NCBI RefSeq assembly: GCF_900091415.1
Contig: NZ_FMHU01000001.1
Coordinates: 1,302,001-1,366,000, forward strand
Origin: Micromonospora inyonensis
GTDB taxonomy: Bacteria; Actinomycetota; Actinomycetes; Mycobacteriales; Micromonosporaceae
Reading direction: 5' to 3'
DNA: 64,000 nucleotides
The notes beneath the pieces were generated by a model. The model made no database searches and was not told the origin of the DNA. It saw only the letters and a program-made list of their open reading frames with translations. Position 1 is the first letter of the stretch. Each line of letters begins with the position of its first letter. Position numbers and translations under genes: made by a program. This document shows, piece by piece, positions 9,152 to 35,193 of this stretch.

Positions 9152-9547
9152 CTGGTCGACCGGGCCGGGCTGCCGCCGATCCGGCTGCACGACCTTCGCC
9201 ACGGTGCTGCCACCCTCGCCCACACCGCCGGTGCCGACCTCAAGACCATTCAACATCAGCTCGGCCACGCCACGATCCGGATCACCGCCGACACCTACAC
9301 CACCAGCCTCCCCGCCACCCAACACAAGGCCGCCGAAGCAACCGCCCGCCTCGTCCTCAACGCCGGCACACCCGGCGCCGAGACGCGACCGCCCGCCAAG
9401 CGTCGCGACAGCGGGAAGCGACGCCCGGCCAAAACCGCGAAGACGGAGTCCATCTCAAAACGGGACCAGCAGATGCCGCCAAGAGCCGAGGACAACACCG
9501 ACATGCAGCCGAAGTCCTCGGGCCGCCGCACCCGCAGAGCTCGCTGA
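9152..9547 (+). pseudogene. C-terminal remnant of a tyrosine integrase
   Basis: The frame beginning immediately after the IS4 right end encodes LVDRAGLPPIRLHDLRHG, then LGHATIRITADTYTT, then a basic tail to a TGA at 9545-9547. HDLRH supplies the His/Arg pair, LGH the second His and TADTYTT the nucleophilic Tyr of phage-type tyrosine recombinases. About 131 codons remain and no start codon is available. The rest of the gene (arm-binding and core-binding domains) is absent. It runs head-on toward the intact integrase gene, so this region has received at least two integrating elements. Confidence 0.75.
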
Positions 9548-9642
9548 CCAACCCTCGCCCACCGGGCGGCCTGCCCGGGAAACAGGAACGCTTCTCCTGC
9601 TCCCAGGCAGGCCATCAACCCGGAGCGACCCGCCTTCGAAGA

Positions 9643-10989
9643 TCAGGCCTGGTAGGCCCCCGCCAGCGACGCCCTGACCCGTACATGCTGTAGAAGAAGC
9701 TCCGCCGACGCCCGTACCGCCTGCTTGGCTATCTGCTTGAACACGCAGATGTAGGTCTCGATCGTGGTCAACGGGGTGTGATGGCCCATGTCCTCCTGGA
9801 TCTGCTTCAGGCCCACCCCGGCGGCCGAGGCGATCCCGGCGGCGCCGTGCCGCAGGTCATGCAGACGGACCGGCGGCAGATCCACGTTCTTGACCAGCTT
9901 CGCGAAGCGGCGGGTAAGCCAGTCCGGACGTACCGGCCGCCCATCCTCGTGCAGGAACACCCGCTGCTTCGGGTCGACCCAACCGAACCTCCGGCGTTGC
10001 CGATGCCACAGATCCGTCAGCAACCGCACACTGAACTCGTCCAAAGCCAAGGTCCGCACCCCGGCCGCCGACTTCGGCGGACCCAACCGCTCCACCCCAC
10101 GCACGACAACCACCTGCTCCCGGATGGTCAACTCGCCATCCACCAGGTTGATGTCCTCCCAGCGCAACCCGGCGATCTCACCCCGGCGCGGCCCTCGCAA
10201 CGCCACCAGCCACCACAACGCGAACAGCGGATCGCTCTGCACGGCCTCCAGGAACCGGCCGACCTGATGCAGCCCCCACACCGCCACCCGAGGCCGCACT
10301 CCCGTGTCGTTCCAGGCCTTCTCCCGCTCCGCGTCCCACACCACCGCCCGTGGACGCGCCCCGTTCGGCAGCCGCAGCCCTCGACCGGGATTCCGGTCGA
10401 TCACCCCCTGCCGCCGCGCCGCGGACAACGCGCTTCGCAGCACCGCACGGATACCGTTCAGCGTGCCCGCAGAAATCAGCCGCCCACCTCGGACGTGGCG
10501 GTGCGAGATCCGGTCCATCGCCCGCTGCGCATCCCGGGTACGCAACTTCCGCATCCGCACGTGACCCAACTGCGGAATGAGGTAGTCGTTCACCAGGCCG
10601 CGGTAGTTGACCATGGTCGAGGGACGCAGCCGCCCCTCGTTCTCCGACAACCAGAACTCCAGCCAGCGCCTCAGCGTCCACATCCCCGCCGCCTCGTGCC
10701 CCGGCACCTGCCGCAGCACCCAGCAGGCCCGCTCGGCCTCCGCCCGGCTGGCGAAACCACCGCGACGCACCCGGACACGCCGCTCATCAATACCAGTCAA
10801 CTGCACGGCGAAGTACCAACGGCCGTGGTCGACCTCGGCCAGACGCTCGCACCGCACACCCAACTGGCGACCGGTCTGCCCGCACCGACAGCCGCACCGC
10901 CGGTACACCAGGCCCGCCTCGTTGGCCCTAGCCACCCATCCCCCAAGACACCCGGACAGGCTAGACAGCAGGCAAACCATGATCATCAA
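9643..10989 (-). CDS. Site-specific tyrosine integrase facing tRNA-Arg
   Basis: Up to 448 residues; a start at GTG 10935 (VARANEAGLVYRRCGC) is also likely because the preceding 18 residues look non-coding. A Cys-rich N-terminal segment (YRRCGCRCGQTGRQLGVRC) is followed by an arm-binding region, a SAM-like core-binding domain (RPSTMVNYRGLVNDYLIPQL) and the catalytic domain. The catalytic residues are Arg in LRGPRRGEIAGLRW, HDLRH, GHHTPLTT and the Tyr in ETYICVF. The gene lies between the mobile region and tRNA-Arg(ACG), whose 3' end faces it 194 bases away. That is the classic arrangement of an island integrated in a tRNA 3' end. It looks intact, although the element it serves is heavily decayed. 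Confidence 0.9.
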   Translation of the reverse strand: MMIMVCLLSSLSGCLGGWVARANEAGLVYRRCGCRCGQTGRQLGVRCERLAEVDHGRWYFAVQLTGIDERRVRVRRGGFASRAEAERACWVLRQVPGHEAAGMWTLRRWLEFWLSENEGRLRPSTMVNYRGLVNDYLIPQLGHVRMRKLRTRDAQRAMDRISHRHVRGGRLISAGTLNGIRAVLRSALSAARRQGVIDRNPGRGLRLPNGARPRAVVWDAEREKAWNDTGVRPRVAVWGLHQVGRFLEAVQSDPLFALWWLVALRGPRRGEIAGLRWEDINLVDGELTIREQVVVVRGVERLGPPKSAAGVRTLALDEFSVRLLTDLWHRQRRRFGWVDPKQRVFLHEDGRPVRPDWLTRRFAKLVKNVDLPPVRLHDLRHGAAGIASAAGVGLKQIQEDMGHHTPLTTIETYICVFKQIAKQAVRASAELLLQHVRVRASLAGAYQA

Positions 10990-11183
10990 CCGGGTGGATC
11001 ATGAGCTCAGACAAAGAGGCGGATCCGCATCATCCGTCCGCGAATCCGCTGCGCATCAACCCCGAAAGCCCAGGTCAACATGGCCCCACCAGGCCCGACA
11101 TGTGGGTCACAGACGTGACCCACATGCGACCCACACCGACCCGAAGGTCAGCGGCAATCATAAATATTGCCTGGTCAAACTTG

Positions 11184-11256
11184 CGCGCCCGAAGGGACTC
11201 GAACCCCTAACCTTCTGATCCGTAGTCAGATGCTCTATCCGTTGAGCTACGGGCGC
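11184..11256 (-). tRNA. tRNA-Arg (ACG)
   Basis: The minus strand folds into a complete cloverleaf with acceptor stem GCGCCCG/CGGGCGC and anticodon stem TCTGA/TCAGA. The seven-base loop CTACGGA has anticodon ACG. The T-arm contains GGTTCGAGTCC and the discriminator base is G. CCA is not encoded. Its 3' end faces the integrase gene and is the probable attachment site of the mobile region. Confidence 0.95.
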
Positions 11257-11291
11257 TGGTGCTCGGCCAGTCTACACACCCGGCCTTCGCG

Positions 11292-11382
11292 CGGAGACTC
11301 CGGGATTCGAACCCGGGAGGGGCTTTAAGACCCCAACCGCATTAGCAGTGCGGCGCCATAGACCAGACTAGGCGAAGTCTCC
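11292..11382 (-). tRNA. tRNA-Ser (GCT)
   Basis: A 91-base class II tRNA on the minus strand. The acceptor stem is GGAGACT/AGTCTCC, the anticodon stem CCGCA/TGCGG with loop CTGCTAA (anticodon GCT). A long variable arm (GGGGTCTTAAAGCCCC) and T-loop GGTTCGAATCC follow, with G as discriminator. It is 35 bases upstream of tRNA-Arg on the same strand and may be co-transcribed with it. Confidence 0.95.
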
Positions 11383-11540
11383 CCGGTGGCCCAGCAGACC
11401 ACCGCCGCCCGAGAATACAGCCCCGCCCCGGCAGGGAGCAAAGCGACTTCCCCCTCCCGCCGCGTCGACCTTCCGTCCCTCGCCGCTGACCAGCGTTTTC
11501 ACGCTGCGCGCCGCTGCCATCGGGACTACGCTTCGTCGAT

Positions 11541-12785
11541 ATGCAGGAGCAGCCGCCGAGCGACCCGCCTCGCCGCGAGCCACGTGCAGCGACACGTCGC
11601 GGCCGTTCTCCCCAACCGACCTTCACCGCGCCGCCCAGCCCGACCGACCCCGTCCCGGGGGCGGACCAGCCGGAGGAGCCACCCCGGGGGCGGTCACGGC
11701 GGAAGGCGGCAGCTCCCACGGTGCTGTTCCAGCCTCCGGACACGGGCGGTCCAGCCGTCGACCAGGAGCCGACCACGCCTCCCCGCCGGGCGCCACGCCA
11801 GAAGGTCGTCGGGACTGGCCGGCGCGCGGGCGCGGTGCCGGAGCAGCCGGCACCCGCTCCCCCGGCCGGGCCCACCGAAGGTGACGTGAAACACACCGCA
11901 GGCGCTGCGGAGCAAGCCGTTGGCACTGCGCGAAAGACCGCTCCGAAGAAGGTCGCTGCCAGGAAGGCACCCGCACAGCAGACCGTCAGCCCGCGGCGGA
12001 ACACGAAAAAGGCGGAGGCCGCCGAGGAGACGGCACCGGAGCCGGCGGACCGGGCCGCGACGGCAGAGGCGAAGCCGGAGCCACCGGCTTCCGACGTGTC
12101 CGGCAGGCCGTCGACCGGCCGTACCGTCGATCTGGAGCGGATTCTGGCGCAGCCGGCCTTCGCGCCGGAGTTGCTGGCGCTGGCGGCGGTGGAGCGGATC
12201 GGGCCGCAGGCCGCCGCCTGGACGGCCGCGCTGCGTGAGACGTACCCGAAGATCGGTTCTGCGGGCCTGGCCCGGCTCGCCACCCGGCGGTTCGTCCGCA
12301 CGGCGGCGTGGGGTGGGGCGACCGCCGCGGTGGCCGGTCTCTTCGCTCCCCTGGCCGAGCTGGCGGCGGTGCTCTGGACGCAGTCCGGGCTGGTGCTGCA
12401 CCTGGCGGCGGCGCACGGCCGCGATCCGGTCGACCCGGAACGGGCAGTCGAACTGCTGGTGCTGACCCGGGTCCACCCGGACGCGGGGAGCGCCCGGACG
12501 GCTCTCGCCGCCGCTCGCGCAGAGACCGGCGACGGCGAGCCGCCGTGGGGTCGGGTGGCCGAAGCCGCGTGGCGGCTGGCCGCTCCGCTCACCGCGCAGG
12601 CAGCCGGCTGGTTGGCGCTGCGGCTGGCGTCGCGGCTGCTGCCCGGCGCGGCGGTGCTCGCCACGGCGGCCGGGAACTCGGCTGCCGTCGAGCGGCTGGC
12701 CGCCCGGGCGGTCGCGGCCTACCGCCAGCCGAAGCTCCGCTGGCCTCAGAGCCAGTCGAACCACTCCCGGGGCAGCAGGGAGTAG
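11541..12785 (+). CDS. EcsC-like protein with long disordered Lys/Pro-rich N-terminus
   Basis: 414 residues. Residues 1 to about 190 are low-complexity, rich in Pro, Ala, Lys and Arg (RKTAPKKVAARKAPAQQ) and surely disordered. The C-terminal half is Ala-rich and helical, with hydrophobic stretches (WGGATAAVAGLFAPLAELAAVL and APLTAQAAGWLALRLASRLL). Together with ERIGPQAAAW and RDPVDPERAVELLVL these resemble EcsC-family membrane-associated proteins. The role is unknown. The first segment after the tRNAs contains the ATG at 11541. The 3' end overlaps the convergent CPBP protease gene by 40 bases, which may cause antisense interference. Homology is from memory. Confidence 0.7.
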   Translation: MQEQPPSDPPRREPRAATRRGRSPQPTFTAPPSPTDPVPGADQPEEPPRGRSRRKAAAPTVLFQPPDTGGPAVDQEPTTPPRRAPRQKVVGTGRRAGAVPEQPAPAPPAGPTEGDVKHTAGAAEQAVGTARKTAPKKVAARKAPAQQTVSPRRNTKKAEAAEETAPEPADRAATAEAKPEPPASDVSGRPSTGRTVDLERILAQPAFAPELLALAAVERIGPQAAAWTAALRETYPKIGSAGLARLATRRFVRTAAWGGATAAVAGLFAPLAELAAVLWTQSGLVLHLAAAHGRDPVDPERAVELLVLTRVHPDAGSARTALAAARAETGDGEPPWGRVAEAAWRLAAPLTAQAAGWLALRLASRLLPGAAVLATAAGNSAAVERLAARAVAAYRQPKLRWPQSQSNHSRGSRE

Positions 12786-13552
12786 CCGACGAACGCCACG
12801 ACGTCGAGCAGCGTGTGCGCGACGACCAGCGGCATCACGCGGCGGGTCCGCAGGAAGAAGAGGCTGAAGATCACGCCCATCACCGCGTTCCCGACGAACG
12901 CGCCGAAGCCCTGGTAGAGGTGGTAGGAACCGCGGATCAGCGCACTGGTGGCGATCACCGCGCCGAGCCGCCACTGGAGCTGCCGTAACCGGGTGGTCAG
13001 GTAGCCGACCACGATCACCTCCTCCAGCACGGCGTTCTGCACGGCGGCGAGGATCAGCACCGGCACCGTCCACCACAGCTCGGGCAGCGCGGCCGGCACG
13101 AGCGTGGCGTTGAGCCCGAGCTGCGCGGCGGCCCAGAACAGCGCCAGGCCGGGCAGGCCGATCAGCGCCGCCAGGCCGGCGCCTCGGGCCAGGTCAAGGC
13201 CGGGTTGTCGGGCGTCGAGACCGAGGGTCCGTCCGGCGTCGCCCGGCTCCCGGTTGAGCAGGTGTACGGCGAGCAGCACCGGCACCAGCGCGAAGGCGAT
13301 GCCGAGCACCTGGTACGTCAGGTCCAGGTACGGCCGGGGTGACGCGGAGGTGTTCAGCGCGGCGGTCTGCCGGGACAGTCCCCCCTCGGCGGTCAGCTTG
13401 GCGGTCAGGGAGACCATCGCGTAGACCGCGGACTGCCCGAGCGACAGCCCGAGCACCAGCAGCGTCTCGGTGCCGAGGACCCGGTGGGACACCGGGCGGG
13501 TGAGCTCAACCGTCACCGCACCACTGTGCCCGATCGCCGTCCCGGACGGCAC
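12746..13552 (-). CDS. CPBP-family intramembrane glutamic protease
   Basis: A polytopic membrane protein of 268 residues, or 256 if translation starts at the GTG at 13516. It carries the Abi/CPBP signature: EE in LEEVIVVGYLTTRLR (about residue 170), a central motif GSYHLYQG (about 208) and a late His in VVAHTLLDVVAF. These residues form the active site of Rce1-like glutamic proteases. About seven or eight hydrophobic segments are visible. Such proteins process peptides or prenylated substrates in the membrane, but the substrate here is unknown. It is transcribed toward the EcsC-like gene and overlaps its end. No ribosome site decides between the two GTG starts. Confidence 0.82.
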   Translation of the reverse strand: MPSGTAIGHSGAVTVELTRPVSHRVLGTETLLVLGLSLGQSAVYAMVSLTAKLTAEGGLSRQTAALNTSASPRPYLDLTYQVLGIAFALVPVLLAVHLLNREPGDAGRTLGLDARQPGLDLARGAGLAALIGLPGLALFWAAAQLGLNATLVPAALPELWWTVPVLILAAVQNAVLEEVIVVGYLTTRLRQLQWRLGAVIATSALIRGSYHLYQGFGAFVGNAVMGVIFSLFFLRTRRVMPLVVAHTLLDVVAFVGYSLLPREWFDWL

Positions 13553-25709: not shown

Positions 25710-25775
25710 TGAGGTGGTAGCAGGGGTCCCCTGTTACCGCATTTTGATGAGGAGGGGGCCCCTGCAACCACCTCA
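25710..25775. repeat. Intergenic cruciform repeat, copy A
   Basis: Outer arms TGAGGTGGTAGCAGGGG and CCCCTGCAACCACCTCA pair over 17 bases with one mismatch. Each arm overlaps a smaller inner palindrome (CAGGGGTCCCCTG on the left). A second member of the same family is at 33654-33713. Both lie between convergent genes, here the quinone oxidoreductase and soxR, and may act as transcription terminators or as REP-like mobile palindromes. Confidence 0.75.
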
Positions 25776-26266: not shown

Positions 26267-26286
26267 AGTTGAAGTGAGCTTCAACT
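26267..26286. promoter_or_regulatory. Palindrome in the soxR/transketolase divergent promoter, likely SoxR box
   Basis: AGTTGAAGTGAGCTTCAACT is an inverted repeat with eight-base arms. It contains TTGAAG as a possible -35 element in both directions, in the manner of MerR-type operators. It is only 10 bases from soxR and 14 bases from the transketolase ATG. It differs from the enterobacterial SoxR box but has the same architecture. Confidence 0.6.
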
Positions 26287-26300
26287 TGCAGGCTAACGGT

Positions 26301-27008
26301 ATGACCGTCACCATCGCCAGCGCCCCCGTCGTCCCGGGGCCGGTCGCGCCGCTGCTGCGTCGGGCCGCCGCAGCCCAGGAGGACGACTTCGGGCCGAACG
26401 TGTACTCCACCATCGATGTCCTCTGGGTGCTCTACGACCGGATCCTACGGATCTCCCCCGACCGGCCGGACGACCCGGACCGGGACCGGTTCCTCCTGTC
26501 GAAGGGGCATGCCGTCGCGGGCTACTACGCCGTCCTGGCCGCGAAGGGGTTCATCCCGCCGGAGTGGCTGGACGACGCCTACGGCCCGGCGAGCCGCCTC
26601 GGCGGCCATCCGGACCGGGTCCTGGTGCCCGGTGTCGAGATCGGGGCCGGGTCGCTCGGGCACGGGCTCGGCCTGGGCGTGGGCACCGTACTCGGCCTGC
26701 GGGCCCAGGGACTGCTCACCCCGAGGGTGTACGTCCTGCTCGGCGACGCCGAACTCGACGAGGGCTCGAACCACGAGGCGATCGCGTACGCGGGCGCGAC
26801 CGGGCTGGCCGGGCTGACCGGGATCGTGGTGGACAACCGGTCCGCCACGCACGGCTGGCCCGGCGGGATCGCGACCCGGTTCACCGTCAACGGCTGGCGG
26901 GCGTCGACTGTCGACGGGAACGACCACGACGCCCTGTACGCCGCCCTGACCGGGCACGACCACCACCGGCCGCACGTCGTCGTCGCGGTCGTCGGCGAGA
27001 AGGAGTGA
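26301..27008 (+). CDS. Transketolase, N-terminal (TPP-pyrophosphate) subunit
   Basis: 235 residues covering the first transketolase domain only. The substrate/TPP His is in LLSKGHAVAGYYA, and the TPP-metal motif GDAELDEGSNHEA (about residue 148) is followed by Asn in VVDNRS. The partner domain is encoded by the next gene four bases after its stop, so the two must assemble into one active enzyme. The ATG at 26301 follows the soxR palindrome very closely, and a slightly later start cannot be excluded. Split transketolases occur in specialised pathways such as aminosugar or C7-cyclitol routes and in some primary metabolism. Control by SoxR is inferred from position. Confidence 0.9.
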   Translation: MTVTIASAPVVPGPVAPLLRRAAAAQEDDFGPNVYSTIDVLWVLYDRILRISPDRPDDPDRDRFLLSKGHAVAGYYAVLAAKGFIPPEWLDDAYGPASRLGGHPDRVLVPGVEIGAGSLGHGLGLGVGTVLGLRAQGLLTPRVYVLLGDAELDEGSNHEAIAYAGATGLAGLTGIVVDNRSATHGWPGGIATRFTVNGWRASTVDGNDHDALYAALTGHDHHRPHVVVAVVGEKE

Positions 27009-27012
27009 AGCT

Positions 27013-27951
27013 GTGACGACAGTGGCCGAGCAGACCGTGGTCGAGGCGACCATGACTGAGGCGGAGACCGTGATGCGGGACCGCTTCGTCGACACCGCGT
27101 ACGAGCTGCTGGCCGAGGATCCGCGGACCGCCGTGGTGCTCGCCGACATCTCGGCGGACAGCTTCTCCGAGGCGTCCCGACGACACCCGGACCGGGTGGT
27201 CAACGTGGGCATCCGGGAGCAGTTGATGGTGGGCGTGGCCGGCGGGCTGGCCCTGGCCGGGCTCCGCCCGGTGGTGCACACCTACGCCCCGTTCCTCGTC
27301 GAGCGGGCGTACGAGCAGATCAAGCTGGACCTCGACCACCAGGACGTGACCGCGGTGCTGGTCAGCGTCGGGGCCTCCTACGACCGGCCGGAGGCCGGGC
27401 GGACCCATCTCTCCCCGGCGGACGTGGCGCTGATCGACACGCTGCACGGCTGGACCGTGCACGTGCCGGGGCACCCCGACGAGGTGCCGCCGCTGCTGCG
27501 CGCCGCAGTGGCCGGTGACGGGGCGGTGTACCTGCGCCTGTCGACGATGGCGAACAGCCGGCCGTACGGCGGCGACGGTTCGCTGCGGGTGGTCCGGGAC
27601 GCGGGACCGGGCGCGCCGCTGCTGGTGGCGGTCGGGCCGTTGCTGGACGAGAGCCTGGCAGCGGTGGCCGGGCGGGACGTGACGGTGGCGTACACCCACC
27701 GGCCGCGCCCCTTCGACACCGCGGGGTTGCGGGCACTCGCCGGCACCGAGGTGATCCTGGTGGAGCCCTACCTGGCCGGCACGTCGAGCCGGATGGTCAG
27801 CGAGGCCCTCGCCGACCGGCCGCACCGGCTGCTGGCGCTCGGGGTCGGCCGGCAGGACCTTCGCCGCTACGGCACGGCGGACGACCACAGCCGCTGGCAC
27901 GGGCTGGACGCGGCCGGGCTGCGCCGTTCGGTCGACGCGTTCCTGGGCTGA
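27013..27951 (+). CDS. Transketolase, C-terminal (pyrimidine-binding) subunit
   Basis: 312 residues containing the pyrimidine-binding domain and the C-terminal transketolase domain. The catalytic Glu is in VVNVGIREQLMVGVAGGLAL (about residue 68), and AGRTHLSPADVALI carries conserved His. An extra 25 residues precede the domain (QTVVEATMTEAETVMRDRF). The start GTG at 27013 lies four bases after the stop of the N-terminal subunit with a GAAGGAG-like ribosome site inside that gene's end, so the pair is co-translated. It donates or accepts two-carbon ketol groups in the pentose-phosphate network. The natural substrate in this strain is unknown. Confidence 0.9.
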   Translation: MTTVAEQTVVEATMTEAETVMRDRFVDTAYELLAEDPRTAVVLADISADSFSEASRRHPDRVVNVGIREQLMVGVAGGLALAGLRPVVHTYAPFLVERAYEQIKLDLDHQDVTAVLVSVGASYDRPEAGRTHLSPADVALIDTLHGWTVHVPGHPDEVPPLLRAAVAGDGAVYLRLSTMANSRPYGGDGSLRVVRDAGPGAPLLVAVGPLLDESLAAVAGRDVTVAYTHRPRPFDTAGLRALAGTEVILVEPYLAGTSSRMVSEALADRPHRLLALGVGRQDLRRYGTADDHSRWHGLDAAGLRRSVDAFLG

Positions 27952-28710: not shown

Positions 28711-29026
28711 GGGGGCGACTGTACGTCGGGGACAGCGTAGCGTGTCGACCCGGCCGGCCAGCATCGGCGCGGCGTCAAGCGCCCGGCACCCTCCGTCACC
28801 CCGACCCGGCGGAAATTGCTCGGCATGGATGCGACAGTGGTGGGTACTGCGTGACCGAGGCGTCACGCAGCGCTGACGCGGGATCGACGCGGACGCGGTA
28901 TCGACGGCGGCGCGACTCCGTTGCGTGAGGGTAATGTCACAGATCTGGTATCCCGCAGCGCATCATGCGTAGCATATCGACGCACTTCACTGTCAGTTGT
29001 CACGTCGGCGGAGAGGGGTACGACCG
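28711..29026. other. 316-base divergent intergenic region
   Basis: It lies between the start codons of the GT2 gene (minus) and the methyltransferase gene (plus). I see no coding potential. The stretch around 28930-29000 is relatively AT-rich (for example GGTAATGTCACAGATCTGG and GCGTAGCATATCG) and probably carries the promoters of both genes. Confidence 0.4.
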
Positions 29027-29767
29027 ATGCGGTGGTACGAGAACGACGGACTCTGGTCAGGTTTCGGGGAGCTGATGTTCTCCGAGCGCCGGGCCGTCGA
29101 GGCCGAGGCCAATGTCGCCGACTCACCGCTGCTCAAGTTCACCCCGGGCACCCGGGTGCTCGACCTGTGCTGCGGCCCCGGCCTGTACGTGGTGCCCCTG
29201 GCCCGGCGCGGGCACGCCGTCACCGGTGTCGACCTGAACCAGGAGATGCTCGACAGGGCGGCCTCGGTCTGCGCCGAAGCCGGAGTCGAGGCCCGGCTGG
29301 AACAGGGCGACATGGGCGACTACGTCCGTCCGGGCGAGTTCGACGTCGTGATCAACATGTACACGTCCTTCGGGTACTTCGCGGAACCGGAGCGGAACCT
29401 CCAGGTCCTCCGCAACGCCCACGAGAGTCTGGTGCCGGGCGGGCAGATCCTGATGGACCTGCTCGGCAAGGAGGTGCTCGCGAGTTGGGTCGGCCGCCCG
29501 CAGGCGGTGGACCTCCCCGACGGGGTGGCGTTCATGCGGGACACCGTCCTCGACGACTGGACCCGGCTGCGGACCGACTGGACCCTGGTCCGGGACGGTG
29601 CCGTGCACCAGGCCTCGATCGTCTCGTTCGTCTACAGTGCCGCCGAGATGCGCGCGATGCTCGAACAGGCCGGCTTCGTCGACATCGAGTGCTTCGGCGG
29701 GTTCGACGGCAGCACCTACGACAACCACGCGAAGCGGCTGATCGTACGGGGAACGCGTCCCCGCTGA
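29027..29767 (+). CDS. SAM-dependent class I methyltransferase
   Basis: 246 residues. Motif I is VLDLCCGPGLYVVPLARRG (about residue 45), with the acidic residue in VTGVDLNQEML. Motif IV is DVVINMYTSFGYF and a post-motif is LVPGGQILMDLLG. The C-terminal part (WTLVRDGAVHQASIVSFVYSA) forms the extra beta-strand lid seen in methyltransferases of the SCO-type 'methyltransferase 25' group. The target is unknown. The ATG at 29027 has the ribosome site GAGAGGGG. The next gene, the PLP enzyme at 30058, is 290 bases away and so may belong to a separate transcript, though a shared pathway cannot be excluded. Confidence 0.8.
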   Translation: MRWYENDGLWSGFGELMFSERRAVEAEANVADSPLLKFTPGTRVLDLCCGPGLYVVPLARRGHAVTGVDLNQEMLDRAASVCAEAGVEARLEQGDMGDYVRPGEFDVVINMYTSFGYFAEPERNLQVLRNAHESLVPGGQILMDLLGKEVLASWVGRPQAVDLPDGVAFMRDTVLDDWTRLRTDWTLVRDGAVHQASIVSFVYSAAEMRAMLEQAGFVDIECFGGFDGSTYDNHAKRLIVRGTRPR

Positions 29768-30057
29768 GGCTTCCCGCCGCCGGGCCGGTGCGACGACGTC
29801 GACCGTCGACCTGATCGAGAACCCGGCCGGACATACCGTGCCCTCCGGCGGATCCCACCGGCCCGCCGCCACGACTGCGGGACCGGTCGCCACTCGTGAC
29901 CGCCCCCGGTCCGCCACCCACCGCGCCACTGGTCCGGGACATGGATTCGCCGGTCGCGGTAACCGCTCGGCCGCTTTCGCAAACCCTCCACGACCTCGCC
30001 GTACCCGCCACCGAGCCGGTGCCGGCCGGCCCCCACCACCATCGAAGGGTTGTGACG

Positions 30058-31110
30058 ATGCTCCGCACCCGCACCCGAACCCCGCTGGTGATCCACGACC
30101 ACGTCACCGACGCACTGAAGACGCCGGCCCTGATCCGGCTCGCCGACAACGTCATCCTCGCCCGGTTCGAGACGATGAAGGTGTACGCCGCACTCGGTGC
30201 CGTACGCGCCCTGCTGGACGCCGGCACCATCCGGCCCGGACAGACCCTCGTCGACTCTTCCAGCGGCATCTACGCCCTGGCCCTGGCCCTGGCCTGTCAC
30301 CGCTACGGGCTGCGCTGCCACATCGTCGCGTCGACCACCGTGGACGCCACGATGCGGGCCCAACTGGAGATCCTCGGCGCCACCGTCGACCAGATGCCCC
30401 CCTCCGCGAACCTGGGTCTCGACCAGCAACGACGGGTCGCCCGGGTACGCCAGCTGCTGGCCGAGAACCCGGATCTGCACTGGATGCGTCAGTACCACGA
30501 CCCGGTGCACTACCTCGGCTACCACGAGCTGGCCGGCCTGATCGCCGACGCGCTGCCCGACGCCGACCTGACCGTGGTGGGCTCGGTCGGCACCGGTTCC
30601 TCCACGGGCGGGATGACCGAGGCGCTGCGCGGGCTCGGCCGTGGGGTCCGGCTGGTCGGCATCCAGCCCTTCGGCAGCGTGACCTTCGGCGCCGACCGGT
30701 TCGCCGACCCCGAGGCGATCATCGCCGGCATCGGCAGCTCGGTCTGGTTCGACAACGTGCACCACGAGCTGTACGACACGATCCACTGGATCGACTTCCG
30801 GCACGCCATGGGCGGCGCGGTCCACCTGCTGCGCGGGCATGCCGTGTTCGCCGGCCTCTCGACCGGAGCGACATATCTCGCCGCCGGGTGGGAGGCCCGG
30901 CGGCACCCGGACCGGATGCATCTGGTGATCGGCGCGGACACCGGTCACCGCTACGTCGAGCGGGTCTTCGCCCGGCACGCCGAGGCGATCGACCCCACCC
31001 GCACCCGACCGCTGGAGATCACCTCGCTGGCCGAGCTCGCGCTGCCCTGGTCGGTACTCGAATGGCGACGCCAACCCTGGCGCAAGACCGGAACGGAGAG
31101 CAACCGATGA
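30058..31110 (+). CDS. Cysteine-synthase-like PLP enzyme (SbnA-like), first gene of a coupled trio
   Basis: 350 residues of the tryptophan-synthase-beta/cysteine-synthase fold. The PLP Lys is Lys41 in ILARFETMKVYAALGA and the substrate loop is VDSSSGIYALALA (about 67). The phosphate loop is GSVGTGSSTGG (178-185) and the pyrimidine-side Ser/Thr is in GLSTGATYLA (266). The usual NPxGSxKDR context of O-acetylserine sulfhydrylase is replaced by RFETMK, so the nucleophile may be other than sulfide, as in SbnA-type diaminopropionate enzymes. Start is ATG 30058 with GAAGGGT before it. Its stop overlaps the ATP-grasp start (ATGA), tying it to the ligase and exporter that follow. Product amino acid is unknown. 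Confidence 0.82.
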   Translation: MLRTRTRTPLVIHDHVTDALKTPALIRLADNVILARFETMKVYAALGAVRALLDAGTIRPGQTLVDSSSGIYALALALACHRYGLRCHIVASTTVDATMRAQLEILGATVDQMPPSANLGLDQQRRVARVRQLLAENPDLHWMRQYHDPVHYLGYHELAGLIADALPDADLTVVGSVGTGSSTGGMTEALRGLGRGVRLVGIQPFGSVTFGADRFADPEAIIAGIGSSVWFDNVHHELYDTIHWIDFRHAMGGAVHLLRGHAVFAGLSTGATYLAAGWEARRHPDRMHLVIGADTGHRYVERVFARHAEAIDPTRTRPLEITSLAELALPWSVLEWRRQPWRKTGTESNR

Positions 31111-32336
31111 CCATCGTCCTGCTGGAGGCCCTCACCTTCGGGCTGGGCCGGCTCGTCGACGCCGCCGACCGTGCCGGCGAACGCCTCTGCCTGCTCACCC
31201 ACGACCGGGGCTGGTACCGCTACGAGTTGTCCCGGCTGCGGCCCGACGCGCTCGACGTCGTCGACGTCGACACCTACGACGCCGCCGCCTGCGCCACCGC
31301 CCTCAGCAAGATCCCCGACCTGCACGGGATGATCAACTCCACCGACACGTGGGGCGTCACCGGAGCCGGCCTGCTGGCCGAGTTCGGCCTGCCCGGCACC
31401 CCGGTCGACACCTGGCGTCTGCTGCGGGACAAGCAGCGGGTGCGGGCACTGTTGCACCAGCGGGGCCTCAGCCGGACCACCGCGGTCGACGTACCCGGCG
31501 GGTCGGACCGCGAGCGGATCGTCGACGCGCTGCGGGAACAGGTCGGGCTGCCGCTGGTGGTGAAGGACTCGGCCGGCACCTCGTCCCGGAACGTGTGGAT
31601 CGCCCGTACCCGCGCGGACCTTAGCGCCGCGCTCGCCGCCGCCGGGACCCGACAGCTCACCGGCCGGCTCGTCGTCGAGCCCTTCTTCGCCGGCCCGCTC
31701 TACAGCGCCGAGACCCTCACCTGGGCTGGCCGGACCCGCCTGCTCGGCGTCCTCAGCCGGCAGGTCTCCCGCGAACCCCTCGTCCGGGAAGAGGCCTCCG
31801 CGTACCCGGTCGCCCTCCCGGAACCCGACCTGGCCGCCCTCGCCGAGTGGGTGGCGAGCGTCCTGGCCGCCGTCGGCTACGAGCAGGGCTTCGCCCACGT
31901 GGAGTTCGTGCTCACCAGCGACGGGCCGGAGCTGATCGAGATCAACGGCCGGATCGGCGGGGCGCTGGTCGGCGAGGCACTGTGCCGCCGGCTCGACGCC
32001 AACGTGTACGAAGGGCTGGTCCGGATGGCGCTCGGGCAGCCGCCCGCGCTCCCCGAACACGCCCCGGACTCCGCACCGGCGGTCGCGTTCGCCCCGGTCT
32101 ACGCCGACCGGGCCGGTGCGCTGACCGACGTACGGGGCCTGGACGCGCTGACCGACTTCCCGGGCACGCCCCGGTGGTACCCGACAGCGCGCTCCGGCCA
32201 GCGCATCGAGCACCTCACCGACCAGCGCGCCTGCATCGGTTTCGTGCTCGCCGAGGGTCCCACCGCCGAACTCGCCCTGCACCGGGTGCTGAGCGCCGCC
32301 GGGGCGGTACGCCCGATGATCAGCGACGGCCCGTGA
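31107..32336 (+). CDS. ATP-grasp carboxylate-amine ligase
   Basis: 409 residues with three-part ATP-grasp architecture: an N-terminal Rossmann-like domain (MTIVLLEALTFGLGRLVDAA), an ATP-binding lid (LPLVVKDSAGTSSRNVWIA, about residue 150) and a C-terminal domain. The metal ligands are in HVEFVLTSDGPELIEINGRIGG (Glu and Asn, about 270-283). Relatives join amino acids into dipeptides or amidate carboxylates (BacD/L-amino-acid-ligase type). Four-base overlaps with the genes on both sides (ATGA at 31107, GTGA at 32333) show translational coupling. It probably couples the amino acid made by the PLP enzyme to a second molecule, which is inference from context. Confidence 0.85.
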   Translation: MTIVLLEALTFGLGRLVDAADRAGERLCLLTHDRGWYRYELSRLRPDALDVVDVDTYDAAACATALSKIPDLHGMINSTDTWGVTGAGLLAEFGLPGTPVDTWRLLRDKQRVRALLHQRGLSRTTAVDVPGGSDRERIVDALREQVGLPLVVKDSAGTSSRNVWIARTRADLSAALAAAGTRQLTGRLVVEPFFAGPLYSAETLTWAGRTRLLGVLSRQVSREPLVREEASAYPVALPEPDLAALAEWVASVLAAVGYEQGFAHVEFVLTSDGPELIEINGRIGGALVGEALCRRLDANVYEGLVRMALGQPPALPEHAPDSAPAVAFAPVYADRAGALTDVRGLDALTDFPGTPRWYPTARSGQRIEHLTDQRACIGFVLAEGPTAELALHRVLSAAGAVRPMISDGP

Positions 32337-33652
32337 GCCGCCTTCCCGGCCTCGGGGCGTTCACCGTGCCACAGCGGTTCCTGCTGGCCAGCTCCTTCCT
32401 CATCCCGCTGGCCAGCTTCGCCGTCCTGCCGTTCATGTCCGTCCTGCTGCACCAACGCCTCGGCCTCGGACTACCGCTCGTCGGCGTGGTGCTCGCGGTC
32501 GCCTCGCTGATCCAGTTCGCCGGCGGCATCGTCGGCGCCGCCGTCGCCGAGCGGGTCGGGCTACGCCGCACCATGCTGCTCGCGCTGGTCGTTCGCACCG
32601 TCGGGTTCGCCGGCTTCGTTCCCGGCCTGCGCTGGCCGGCCGTGGCCGTCGTCGCCCTCGGGCTGACCAGCTGCGGTGCCGCGCTCTACCTGCCGGCGAA
32701 CAAGGCGTACCTGATCCACCGGGCCGACCCGCAACGCCGGCCCATGCTGCTCGCCGCCAGCGGGTCGGCGTTCAACGCCGGCATCGCGCTCGGCCCGCTC
32801 GCCGCCGGACCGTTCGTCATGACCGCCTCCACAACGCTGTTCGCCCTGGTAACCGGCCTGTTCGTGGTGGTTGCCGCCGGCCATTTCCGGCTGCCGCCCG
32901 AACCGCCCGGCGGGGATGCCGGGGACGTGCCGGACGGAGGCGACGCCGAACCCGCCGACGGGACCACACGGGCGGGCGCGCGGGTCGAACGGCCTCGTCG
33001 GGTGCTGGACGGCCTACCGGTGCTGCCGTTCGCCATCACCGCGCTCAGCCTCTACCTGTTCATGTTCTTCCAGCACTTCCTCGCCGTGTACGCGGTGCCC
33101 CGAACCTCGGCCACCTGGTACGGCGTCGTGCTGATGGCGTACTCGGCGGCAGTCGTCGTACTCCAGCCGGCGCTGTCGAACTGGATCGGCCGGCTGCGCT
33201 ACCCCCAGGCGATGCGCGTCGGCTTCGCCACCATCGGCACCGGCATGGCCGTGCTCGCCGTCGCCCACCCGGCGGCGCTCCTGGCCGGCGCGTTGCTCAT
33301 CTGCCTCGGCGAGATCGTGCTGTTCCTCAAGAACGACCTCGTGGCGCTGGAGATGTCCGACCGGTCACCCGCCGTGGTCTTCGGCCAGCAACGGCTCGCC
33401 GCCGGCATCGGCGCACTGGTCAGTGGCGTCGTCGGGGGTATCGGCTACCAGTACCTCGACCGGCTCGGCAACGCCGGGTGGTTCTGGTTGGCCGTGGCCG
33501 CCCAGTGCCTGCTGCTCCCGCCGCTGGTGATCGTCCTGGCGCGGTGGTTGCAGGGCACCCGACCACCGCCGGGGCCACCCGCCCGGTCGCCGGGCCACGG
33601 GGCGCCCCGGGCCACGGCGTCGGTGGGCGGCGGGCCGCCGCAGTCCGGCTGA
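32333..33652 (+). CDS. MFS exporter, last gene of the PLP/ATP-grasp trio
   Basis: 439 residues with about twelve hydrophobic segments. The conserved loop between helices 2 and 3 is represented by AVAERVGLRRTMLL. A central polar loop (PPEPPGGDAGDVPDGGDAEP) separates the two halves, and a Pro/Gly-rich tail ends the protein. Start is the GTG at 32333 overlapping the ligase stop. The arrangement resembles bacilysin-type systems in which a dipeptide ligase is followed by an MFS pump (BacE), so export of, and self-protection from, the product is the likely role. A 21-bp cruciform repeat follows two bases after the stop. Confidence 0.85.
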   Translation: MSRLPGLGAFTVPQRFLLASSFLIPLASFAVLPFMSVLLHQRLGLGLPLVGVVLAVASLIQFAGGIVGAAVAERVGLRRTMLLALVVRTVGFAGFVPGLRWPAVAVVALGLTSCGAALYLPANKAYLIHRADPQRRPMLLAASGSAFNAGIALGPLAAGPFVMTASTTLFALVTGLFVVVAAGHFRLPPEPPGGDAGDVPDGGDAEPADGTTRAGARVERPRRVLDGLPVLPFAITALSLYLFMFFQHFLAVYAVPRTSATWYGVVLMAYSAAVVVLQPALSNWIGRLRYPQAMRVGFATIGTGMAVLAVAHPAALLAGALLICLGEIVLFLKNDLVALEMSDRSPAVVFGQQRLAAGIGALVSGVVGGIGYQYLDRLGNAGWFWLAVAAQCLLLPPLVIVLARWLQGTRPPPGPPARSPGHGAPRATASVGGGPPQSG

Positions 33653-33653
33653 G

Positions 33654-33713
33654 GGTGGTAGCAGGGGACCCCTGTTACCGCCTGGTGGTGAGCAGGGGTC
33701 CCCTGCTACCACC
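33654..33713. repeat. Intergenic cruciform repeat, copy B (perfect 21-bp arms)
   Basis: The outer arms are perfect complements over 21 bases, beginning GGTGGTAGCAGGGG on the left and ending CCCCTGCTACCACC on the right. Each arm contains its own CAGGGGWCCCCTG palindrome. It is the same family as 25710-25775 and also lies between convergent stop codons (MFS gene and sensor kinase gene). Confidence 0.8.
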
Positions 33714-33726
33714 CCACCAGACGGGG

Positions 33727-35193
33727 TCACACCGATGGCCGGGTCCGGTGCGGCACTCCGGGCAGCCTGACGGTGAACGTCGCGCCGCCCTCCGGGGCGT
33801 GCCCGGCGGTGATCGTGCCGCCGAGCCGCCGCACCAGCCCGGCGGCCAACGCCAGTCCCAGCCCGCTGCCGACCTTCCGGATCCCCCGGTACCGCCGGTG
33901 CAGGGCGCCCCGCTCGAACACCACCGCCAGGTCGTCGTCGGTGAAGCCCGGCCCGCCGTCCCGGACCTCGACCACCCCGCCCGTCACCGGGTCCACACCC
34001 GCCGGCCGGGCCGCGAGCACCACCGGCGCCCCCGGGGGTACGACCCGCAGCGCGTTCTCCAGCAACCCGTCGACCACCTGCCGGATCCGCCCCGGATCGG
34101 TGTACACCGGAACCGGCCCGGCGGGCACCTCGACCCGGAACGGCAGGCCGACCGCCGCGCACCGGGCCGACCAGGTGTCCGCCGCCGCGGCGACGAGCTG
34201 GACGAGGTCCACCGGGACCGGGTCGAGTGGAAAGTCGGCCGCCTCCAGCCGGGCCAACGCGAGCAGGTCGCTGACCAGGCGGTCCAGGTGCTCCGCCTCG
34301 GCCAGCATGGTCCGCCCGGTCTGCGCCGCCTGGTCGGGGCCGAGCACACCGTCGGCGAGTGCCTCGGCGTACCCCCGGACGGCGGTCAACGGGGTACGCA
34401 GCTCGTGCGAGACGGAGAGCAGGAACTCCCGTTGCCGTCCCTCACTGGTGGCGAGCGCCTCGGCCAGCCCGTTGAGCGCGTGCGCCAGCTCGGCGACCTC
34501 GTCAGGCGGTTCGACCGGTAGCCGTACCGCGCGGTCCCCGGCGCTGAGCCAGGCGGCGGCGGTGGCCGCCTGCCGGATCGGGCGGGCCAGGCGGCGGGCC
34601 AGCAGCCAGCCGGCGACCAGCCCGGCGGCCAGCCCGGCGAGCAGCGGAACCCAGATGCTCAGGAGCACCTGCCGCCAGAGCCCGGTGACCCGGGACCGGG
34701 TGAGCACCACCCCGTTGCCGTCGCCGAGCGCGCGCCCCTCGACCAGGGCCGGCCGGCCGTCGACGAACCGCCGGACGGAGACGTCCCGGCCGGCGGCGAC
34801 CCGCTCGACCACCTGCGGGGGCAGGCCGGGCCGGTCGACCCGCCCGTCCCGGATCAGGTACGCCTCGACGTCCTGGTTGGCCAACAGGCGCAGCAGCCGT
34901 TCGTCGTCGGTCGGACGGCCCCGGTTCAGCCGGAACCGGAGCACCTCGACGGTCATCTGCGCCTGCGCGGCCAGCGTGTGCTGCGCCTGCCGCTGGGCGT
35001 TGCGGACCGCCAGCGGCACCGCCACCACTGCGGTGACCAGCACCGACACCAGTGCCACCGCGCAGGTGACCAGCACCGCGCGGGCGGTCAGGGTACGACC
35101 GGGCCGGAATCGGCGCGGCCCGGTCGCGGTCACCGTCGGCAGCGCCCCGGTCGGCTGGTCCACGCCGGGCGGGCCGGCGGGGCGGTCAGCCAT
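33727..35193 (-). CDS. Sensor histidine kinase with HAMP domain
   Basis: 488 residues. An N-terminal membrane helix is followed by an external sensor region of about 120 residues, a second helix (LSIWVPLLAGLAAGLVAGWLL) and a HAMP segment (ARRLARPIRQAATAAAWLSAGD). The phospho-acceptor His is in SVSHELRTPLTAVRGYAEAL. The N, G1 and G2 boxes follow (LLENALRVVPPG, VEVRDGGPGFTDDD, GSGLGLALAAGLV). It is an EnvZ-type kinase; the signal is unknown. Its ATG lies inside the end of the response-regulator gene (eight-base overlap), so regulator and kinase are one operon. It ends facing the MFS operon. Confidence 0.93.
   Translation of the reverse strand: MADRPAGPPGVDQPTGALPTVTATGPRRFRPGRTLTARAVLVTCAVALVSVLVTAVVAVPLAVRNAQRQAQHTLAAQAQMTVEVLRFRLNRGRPTDDERLLRLLANQDVEAYLIRDGRVDRPGLPPQVVERVAAGRDVSVRRFVDGRPALVEGRALGDGNGVVLTRSRVTGLWRQVLLSIWVPLLAGLAAGLVAGWLLARRLARPIRQAATAAAWLSAGDRAVRLPVEPPDEVAELAHALNGLAEALATSEGRQREFLLSVSHELRTPLTAVRGYAEALADGVLGPDQAAQTGRTMLAEAEHLDRLVSDLLALARLEAADFPLDPVPVDLVQLVAAAADTWSARCAAVGLPFRVEVPAGPVPVYTDPGRIRQVVDGLLENALRVVPPGAPVVLAARPAGVDPVTGGVVEVRDGGPGFTDDDLAVVFERGALHRRYRGIRKVGSGLGLALAAGLVRRLGGTITAGHAPEGGATFTVRLPGVPHRTRPSV

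Follow-up and report, generated by a model that had tools for sequence, protein, structure and literature searches.

The window analyzed here, a stretch of 64,000 nucleotides of the Micromonospora inyonensis genome (contig NZ_FMHU01000001.1, positions 1,302,001 to 1,366,000), carries a compact cassette of four plus-strand genes encoding a methyltransferase (MT), a pyridoxal phosphate (PLP)-dependent enzyme, an ATP-grasp ligase, and a transporter of the major facilitator superfamily (MFS). The steady company of these genes in other actinomycetes, and the metal-uptake genes and SigC-type promoters found with them there, suggest that the cassette probably makes and exports the product of a small metallophore system independent of nonribosomal peptide synthetases (NRPS). 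The copy in the window is a mobile, stripped-down accessory version without the promoter and the importer in cis.

The first gene (29027..29767) encodes a Class I S-adenosylmethionine-dependent MT of the Methyltransf_25 family (PF13649, 70.7 bits); its open reading frame (ORF) opens at 28997 (28997–29767), and the ATG at 29027 is the start used by the homologues. It is followed by the gene of a fold-II PLP enzyme (30058..31110; PF00291, 110.6 bits), an SbnA/cysteine-synthase-like protein of a clade of its own (RFETMK, DSSSGIYALALA), then by the ligase gene (31107..32336) and the gene of the MFS transporter, a probable exporter with a GTG start (32333..33652; PF07690 (MFS_1), 80.5 bits), which is approximately 40–70% identical to cassette-linked MFS genes elsewhere. 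All four ORFs are open and the last three overlap, by ATGA at 31107 and by GTGA at 32333. The first-pass annotation of this DNA had described these last three genes as a coupled operon; their coordinates and both overlaps hold, and the MT belongs with them, the set being kept in other genomes far beyond chance. Its figure of about 12 helices for the MFS pump stayed unconfirmed, a crude check having given 18 overlapping hydrophobic windows. The best match of the MT among the Protein Data Bank (PDB) sequences was 9ri2 (E 7e-20), and the list of PDB matches gave no support for an azetidine-forming or aminobutyrate-transferring enzyme.

Conservation of the cassette in actinomycetes

A contig scan with the PLP protein detected 394 relatives among 435 stretches, and the best 80 loci were kept; 61 of them, flanked by 7 kb or more on either side, formed the full-flank set. 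Genes were counted from tblastn matches because simple gene calling had proved incomplete for some loci; some of the loci are short and the gene ends come from tblastn. These 80 are the closest relatives, many of them akin to one another, hence the counts given below are not independent.

The cassette set was found across Streptomyces, Pseudonocardiaceae, and Micromonosporaceae. In the full-flank loci, the PLP gene was accompanied by the ATP-grasp gene in 60 of 61 cases, by the MT gene in 57, and by an MFS gene of the same family in 41. In 63 of the 80 loci, the PLP gene was followed directly by the ATP-grasp gene in the same orientation, and the exact contiguous order MT–PLP–ATP-grasp–MFS was seen in 15. 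The order of the wider set varies by group, with the sigma factor and reductase genes downstream, the sigma factor gene upstream, or the importer genes between MT and PLP, which argues for a functional linkage. This co-occurrence, together with the distance of the PLP enzyme from ordinary O-acetylserine sulfhydrylase (OASS) described below, supports the earlier proposal of a compact pathway for an exported amino acid-derived, possibly dipeptide-like metabolite. No description of the four-gene cassette was found in the open-licence PubMed Central (PMC) literature, the subscription literature being mostly outside the scope of the search.

Beyond the cassette itself, the full-flank loci encoded a FecCD permease (35/61), its substrate-binding protein (SBP; 35/61), an ATP-binding cassette (ABC) ATPase (36/61), a Ferric_reduct-type membrane protein (31/61), a SigC-like sigma factor of the extracytoplasmic function (ECF) type (28/61), a GHMP kinase (11/61), and a small membrane protein, C20 (11/61). 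The sigma factor or the importer was present in 56 of 61 loci, and the sigma factor, importer, or reductase in 59, with L051 and L112 as the exceptions.

The family is patchily distributed. A PLP member with at least 59% identity occurred in 12 of the 300 genomes searched within the window's own family, Micromonosporaceae (including that of the window), and a relative was carried by eight of 72,556 records of a plasmid collection (E ≤ 1e-40; 46–76% identical).

Two observations concern the loci rather than the cassette. C20, which usually adjoins the SigC-like gene (loci L038–L039, L043, L048, L055, L065, L083, L087, L094, and L101), shares three invariant His residues among ten aligned members, together with a conserved RGPP close to the C-terminus; the L103 protein was left out because its translation contained a stop. 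The two members scanned gave no Pfam match. Locus L042 comes from a contig titled Rhodococcus rhodnii, and its ATP-grasp protein nests inside those of Kibdelosporangium with the same gene order, so the contig is probably mislabelled or contaminated.

Metal importers linked to the cassette in relatives

Fourteen Micromonosporaceae stretches of 15–20 kb around PLP family members (L130–L143) were inspected. Nine of them encoded a binding protein of the NikA/CntA type; that of L130 scored 312 bits with nickel_nikA and 226 bits with CntA, both below the cut-off. A FecCD permease was linked to the set in L131, L137, L139, and L143, L131 and L143 being divergent PLP members (59–60%) without ATP-grasp or MT matches. 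An importer expected of a metallophore system is thus linked to the cassette in the relatives, either as FecCD or as the NikA-type SBP. In 11 of the 14 stretches, dipeptide-epimerase-like genes of the enolase superfamily were found close to the PLP gene, where they would fit a dipeptide step; the enolase-type protein of L130 stayed below both cut-offs (182 bits for DgcA, the N-acetyl-D-Glu racemase, and 97 bits for L-Ala-D/L-Glu epimerase).

On a Tsukamurella plasmid (L157), the importer, DUF364, MFS, and GHMP kinase genes accompany the PLP gene, and no ATP-grasp or methyltransferase gene is annotated in that stretch, an arrangement suggesting that the core of the product comes from the PLP enzyme. 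DUF364 proteins ("putative heavy-metal chelation") adjoin two of the plasmid copies.

In the bacilysin pathway an ATP-grasp dipeptide ligase works with an MFS exporter, and the first-pass annotation had likened the window genes to systems of this type. A dipeptide-type antibiotic or antimetabolite with MFS self-resistance would agree with a pump beside a ligase of the L-amino acid ligase family, as well as with the patchy distribution and the plasmid copies. The relatives of the cassette have a metal-uptake context instead: FecCD or NikA importers of metal complexes, ferric-reductase-like proteins, and the SigC-like factor with its promoter are linked to it, and because of this linkage we set the bacilysin-like reading aside as improbable in favor of a metallophore. 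No anticapsin-type genes were recognized among the conserved neighbors, with the Bac proteins not used as queries.

A SigC-type promoter upstream of the cassette in relatives

Of 64 non-redundant MT-upstream regions, not counting the window, 50 contained the bipartite motif GGGAAC-N17-CGAC, with a spacer of 17 in all 50 although 15–19 was permitted. In seven of the 14 regions without it, the MT gene is internal. Over the 1.47 Mb of the 80 loci, the spacer-17 pattern had 161 matches (including those inside the PLP coding sequence in the S. griseus group loci), and 66 of them, in 47 loci, were no more than 250 bp upstream of a gene of the cassette or one linked to it, with ATP-grasp left out of this count. 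Other spacers between 12 and 23 gave zero to four matches so placed, except for spacer 14 with 19, and the control word GAGGAC with spacer 17 gave 69 matches with just two within 250 bp upstream.

A weight matrix trained on the MT-upstream sites only (training minimum score 10.4) revealed sites scoring 21–30 immediately ahead of the NikA-type operons of L130, L133, L138, L140, and L142, i.e., in five of the six scanned loci with NikA; L132 had none, and L134, L136, and L141 were outside the scan. Neither the window nor 99,480 bp of control DNA contained a site with a score of at least 15. The SigC-like factor and this promoter indicate a putative SigC-type regulon in the relatives.

SigC is described in passages of PMC7924339, PMC9147137, and PMC8999054 as counteracting copper starvation in Mycobacterium tuberculosis, where it drives the isonitrile-lipopeptide operon and ctpB; a review assigns SigC to ECF36. 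The likeness of the present system to the mycobacterial SigC regulon (nrp isonitrile chalkophore genes, ctpB) lies in a SigC-like ECF factor linked to metallophore-type genes and, in the window's own genome, in the promoter type of the cassette relatives before an operon that continues to a copper P-type ATPase. The chalkophore is made via an NRPS there, whereas a PLP enzyme and an ATP-grasp ligase are encoded here.

The PLP enzyme and the ATP-grasp ligase

SbnA (TIGR03945) was the best-scoring curated family for the PLP enzyme, although the score of 141 bits is far below the cut-off of 349.95; for cysK/OASS (TIGR01139), it was 79.2 bits against 350.95. The hallmarks noted at first pass are in place: Lys41 within RFETMK, the SSSG loop (followed by Ile), and the Gly loop, with Lys41, Ser67–Gly70, and Ile71 invariant among 35 aligned homologues. 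The cysteine-synthase-type loop Asn (Asn77 in SbnA) contacts O3' of PLP, and SSSGI of the window enzyme stands against ..GN in SbnA and in the eight PALP paralogues of the same genome. Parts of PMC12414870 name Arg132, Tyr152, and Ser185 as the SbnA residues for O-phosphoserine. The equivalents of the first two (Arg126 and Tyr146 in the window) are conserved in all 12 family rows compared, and likewise in all 12 rows of a sister family.

In the tree, the PLP family formed a separate clade (100/100) on a long stem, being neither SbnA nor cysteine synthase; the place of SbnA itself is unsettled because of long branches and because SbnA was included only as a fragment. The sister of this clade is a family 30–36% identical to it, with argininosuccinate-lyase-like and ATP-grasp neighbors. 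The AlphaFold2 model of the window enzyme (pLDDT 79.4, pTM 0.81) has the predicted fold common to OASS and SbnA, which cannot tell the two apart. A GHMP kinase gene lay directly 5' of the PLP gene in 11 of the 80 loci, as would be expected for an O-phospho amino acid substrate.

An ordinary cysteine or S-sulfocysteine synthase with incidental neighbors would agree with public names such as "cysteine synthase A" and with the OASS fold of the model. The score far below the cysK cut-off, the presence of Ile at the loop Asn position in the members compared, the separate clade, and the steady partnership with the ATP-grasp gene make this very improbable. The tight grouping with ordinary OASS that would have counted against the first-pass proposal was not seen.

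The ligase exceeded the Pfam cut-offs for ATP-grasp_4 (PF13535, 45.5 bits, cut-off 27) and LAL_C2 (PF18603, 57.3 bits, cut-off 29.4), and its ATP-grasp part reached 172 bits with PRK02186, below the cut-off of 625. By its domains it is of the L-amino acid ligase type, and dipeptide formation may be predicted. The best PDB sequence match was 3vot, the L-amino acid ligase BL00235, and at 68 bits (E 6e-18) this similarity is only remote and does not imply the same substrates. The metal ligands claimed earlier presumably lie in the ELIEING segment, which is indeed present at residue 275.

Among the known systems, SbnA of the staphyloferrin B pathway, which converts O-phosphoserine and Glu to N-(1-amino-1-carboxy-2-ethyl)glutamic acid (ACEGA), shares with the cassette enzyme the Lys, Arg132, and Tyr152 equivalents and works in a siderophore context. 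No SbnB-like gene was recognized in the cassette, SbnB not having been used as a query. In the [S,S]-ethylenediaminedisuccinic acid (aes) cluster of Amycolatopsis japonicum, SbnA-like and lyase genes make a zinc chelator. The sister PLP family, which pairs with an argininosuccinate-lyase-like gene and ATP-grasp, resembles that description, whereas the cassette has no lyase. A fungal aspergillomarasmine A synthase, also cysteine-synthase-like, turns O-phosphoserine and Asp into a metallophore according to a portion of PMC12751119. The likeness to the aspergillomarasmine/marasmin pathway, drawn from its description, is that of a cysteine-synthase-like PLP enzyme giving a metal chelator; that pathway is fungal, and no ATP-grasp, methyltransferase, or ECF control is described for it in the parts of the sources available.

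The sister PLP family (L146–L149, L021–L033, and L037) possibly represents another group of chelator pathways; several of its loci have argininosuccinate-lyase-like, ATP-grasp, and GHMP-like genes.

Proposed pathway and the choice of metal

From these data we infer the substrate, the product, the direction of transport, and the metal. The PLP enzyme would convert O-phospho-L-serine, or possibly another O-phospho amino acid related to it, to an alpha-aminoacrylate and would add an amino acid nucleophile to the latter, like SbnA and aspergillomarasmine synthase, as its family and conserved residues suggest. Judging by its family, the ATP-grasp enzyme would link this product to another amino acid, the MT would methylate the conjugate, and the MFS pump would export it. 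In the relatives, the metal complex would be taken up again by the FecCD-type or NikA/CntA-type ABC importer, and the genes would be switched on by the SigC-like ECF factor, whose linkage and promoter are seen in the sequences. The predicted product is a methylated, ATP-grasp-ligated amino acid conjugate acting as a metal ligand.

Copper is the favored metal by homology of the regulator, since SigC answers copper starvation in M. tuberculosis and since the same promoter type occurs before a FecCD operon running to a copper P-type ATPase in the window's own genome. Next to the best SigC-like ECF gene of that genome (C1:3019345–3019902, 49% identity) lie a CopC-CopD gene and one for a zf-HC2 anti-sigma-like protein; two promoter-like sites occur nearby, one scoring 19.4 (L144:10043) and the other, a weak site, 13.1 (9313). 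Another site (score 19.5, C2:330310) precedes genes for an SBP, FecCD, an ABC ATPase (FepC), a P450, and a ferredoxin. After these comes the gene of a copper P-type ATPase, which exceeds the TIGR01511 cut-off with 526 bits and is probably on the same transcript as judged by strand and spacing.

Several results weigh against the metallophore reading or its copper form. The own-genome sites are only suggestive, as the bare pattern with spacers of 15–18 had 204 matches in this genome against 47 in the reversed control and the matrix scan was limited to selected stretches, in which other matches of 13–15 also occurred. At the positions of Ser185 and loop Asn77 of SbnA, the family rows have Gly (Gly178 in the window) and Ile, respectively, so that a chemistry unlike that of SbnA is possible. 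Within the genus, the PLP gene was present in just 12 of 160 genomes (E ≤ 1e-90; own included), which shows that it does not belong to a core metal system, and to this the kinship of the 80 loci counted above must be added. Weak Zur-like words (10 of 15 matches) were slightly more frequent than chance would give, occurring in six of 61 MT-upstream regions, against 1.2 expected from shuffled regions and seven in 305 random stretches. Finally, importers of the NikA/CntA type and aspergillomarasmine-like chemistry fit nickel, zinc, and cobalt as well.

The main rival of copper, and a substantial, if lesser, possibility, is a metallophore for another metal (nickel, zinc, cobalt, or iron); the SigC-like factor would then answer a different signal outside mycobacteria. 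Such a metallophore would account for the NikA/CntA-type SBP genes of the Micromonosporaceae loci, the ferric-reductase-like genes, the Zur-like words, and the name "iron ABC transporter permease" given to the FecCD permeases of three plasmid records; in addition, Zn, Ni, and Co are the metals preferred by aspergillomarasmine, and PMC11091072 discusses NikA as a binder of its metal complexes. On the other side, the six Zur-like words have scattered positions and differing letters, IdeR boxes showed no excess in the 61 MT-upstream regions, the known role of SigC concerns copper, and the own-genome sites lie near CopC/CopD and before the operon running to the copper ATPase. A Zur regulon was rejected owing to the scatter and mutual unlikeness of the words, although some extra control may exist. 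No clear excess had emerged from an earlier Zur/IdeR test on approximate operon starts, in which the operon was taken to begin with the PLP gene in 30 of 81 loci.

Returning to copper, we tentatively propose, as an idea that may well fail, that the cassettes represent widespread, undescribed actinobacterial NRPS-independent chalkophores: amino acid conjugates that an ATP-grasp ligase and a distinct fold-II PLP enzyme build on O-phosphoserine, exported by MFS, re-imported by FecCD or NikA, controlled by a SigC-type copper-starvation switch, and in some species elaborated with a dipeptide epimerase, a P450, or a dedicated GHMP kinase. If the metallophore reading is right, a small system for metal acquisition is present in many actinomycetes, the Streptomyces griseus group among them, under the public names "cysteine synthase", "ATP-grasp domain-containing protein", and "MFS transporter". 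This would explain the role of the SigC-like regulon outside mycobacteria, define a promoter and a growth condition with which the product could be sought, and add a new class of aminopolycarboxylate-like or dipeptide chelators.

The cassette copy in the window

The last points on the unfavorable side come from the window. GGGAAC-N17-CGAC with at most one mismatch occurs in it 16 times (12.2 expected by chance), none between 28003 and 33652, and no importer or sigma factor gene of the sought families lies within the 64 kb, where the MT, PLP, ATP-grasp, and MFS genes are the only members of these families. The region 5' of the MT gene on the plus strand (28716..29026, left edge approximate) has no SigC-type ECF promoter by the pattern and weight-matrix scans; the best plus-strand matrix score between 28500 and 30100 was 4.2, inside the MT gene and well under the training minimum.

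Eight congeners were matched and six fetched (L169–L174). Their left flank, with SoxR and a glycosyltransferase, is the same as in the window, and so is the right flank, with a histidine kinase and a response regulator, where covered. The 3–5 kb slot between them (28866–33727) holds the four-gene cassette in the window and other genes in all six congeners.

In the ATP-grasp tree, the window protein joins the copy of genome G048 (100/99). This closest relative has the promoter and an N-terminally truncated PLP gene. Its locus (L139, approximately 9190–13189) shows the order MT, FecCD, C-terminal PLP part, ATP-grasp, and MFS.

The missing promoter and importer, the slot filled otherwise in the congeners, and the comparison with G048 mark the window cassette as a mobile, stripped-down copy. 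With the switch and the importer not in cis, its function in this strain is less sure; if functional, it would need another promoter and an importer encoded elsewhere. That it is an incomplete, horizontally acquired remnant, silent or non-functional, agrees with the occupancy of the slot in the six congeners, with the missing parts, and with the truncated PLP gene of the closest relative. This seems rather unlikely, given four open ORFs, the overlap of the last three, and the intact invariant residues of the PLP family.

In all six congeners, the slot contains an ORF of 718–749 aa resembling a membrane protein, and in some of them also secreted-protein-like and small lipoprotein-like ORFs. SoxR and the glycosyltransferase were rejected as pathway members, as they occupy the same place in the six congeners without the cassette. 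A split transketolase pair (26274–27951), divergent from SoxR, was rejected likewise, since it has the same place in four of the six cassette-free congeners (absent from L169 and L171). A dispersed palindromic element, GGTAGCAGGGGNCCCCTG, with 103 matches in the own genome and none in the reversed control, occurs in the window at 25716–25733 and 33657–33711, one copy lying just to the right of the cassette.

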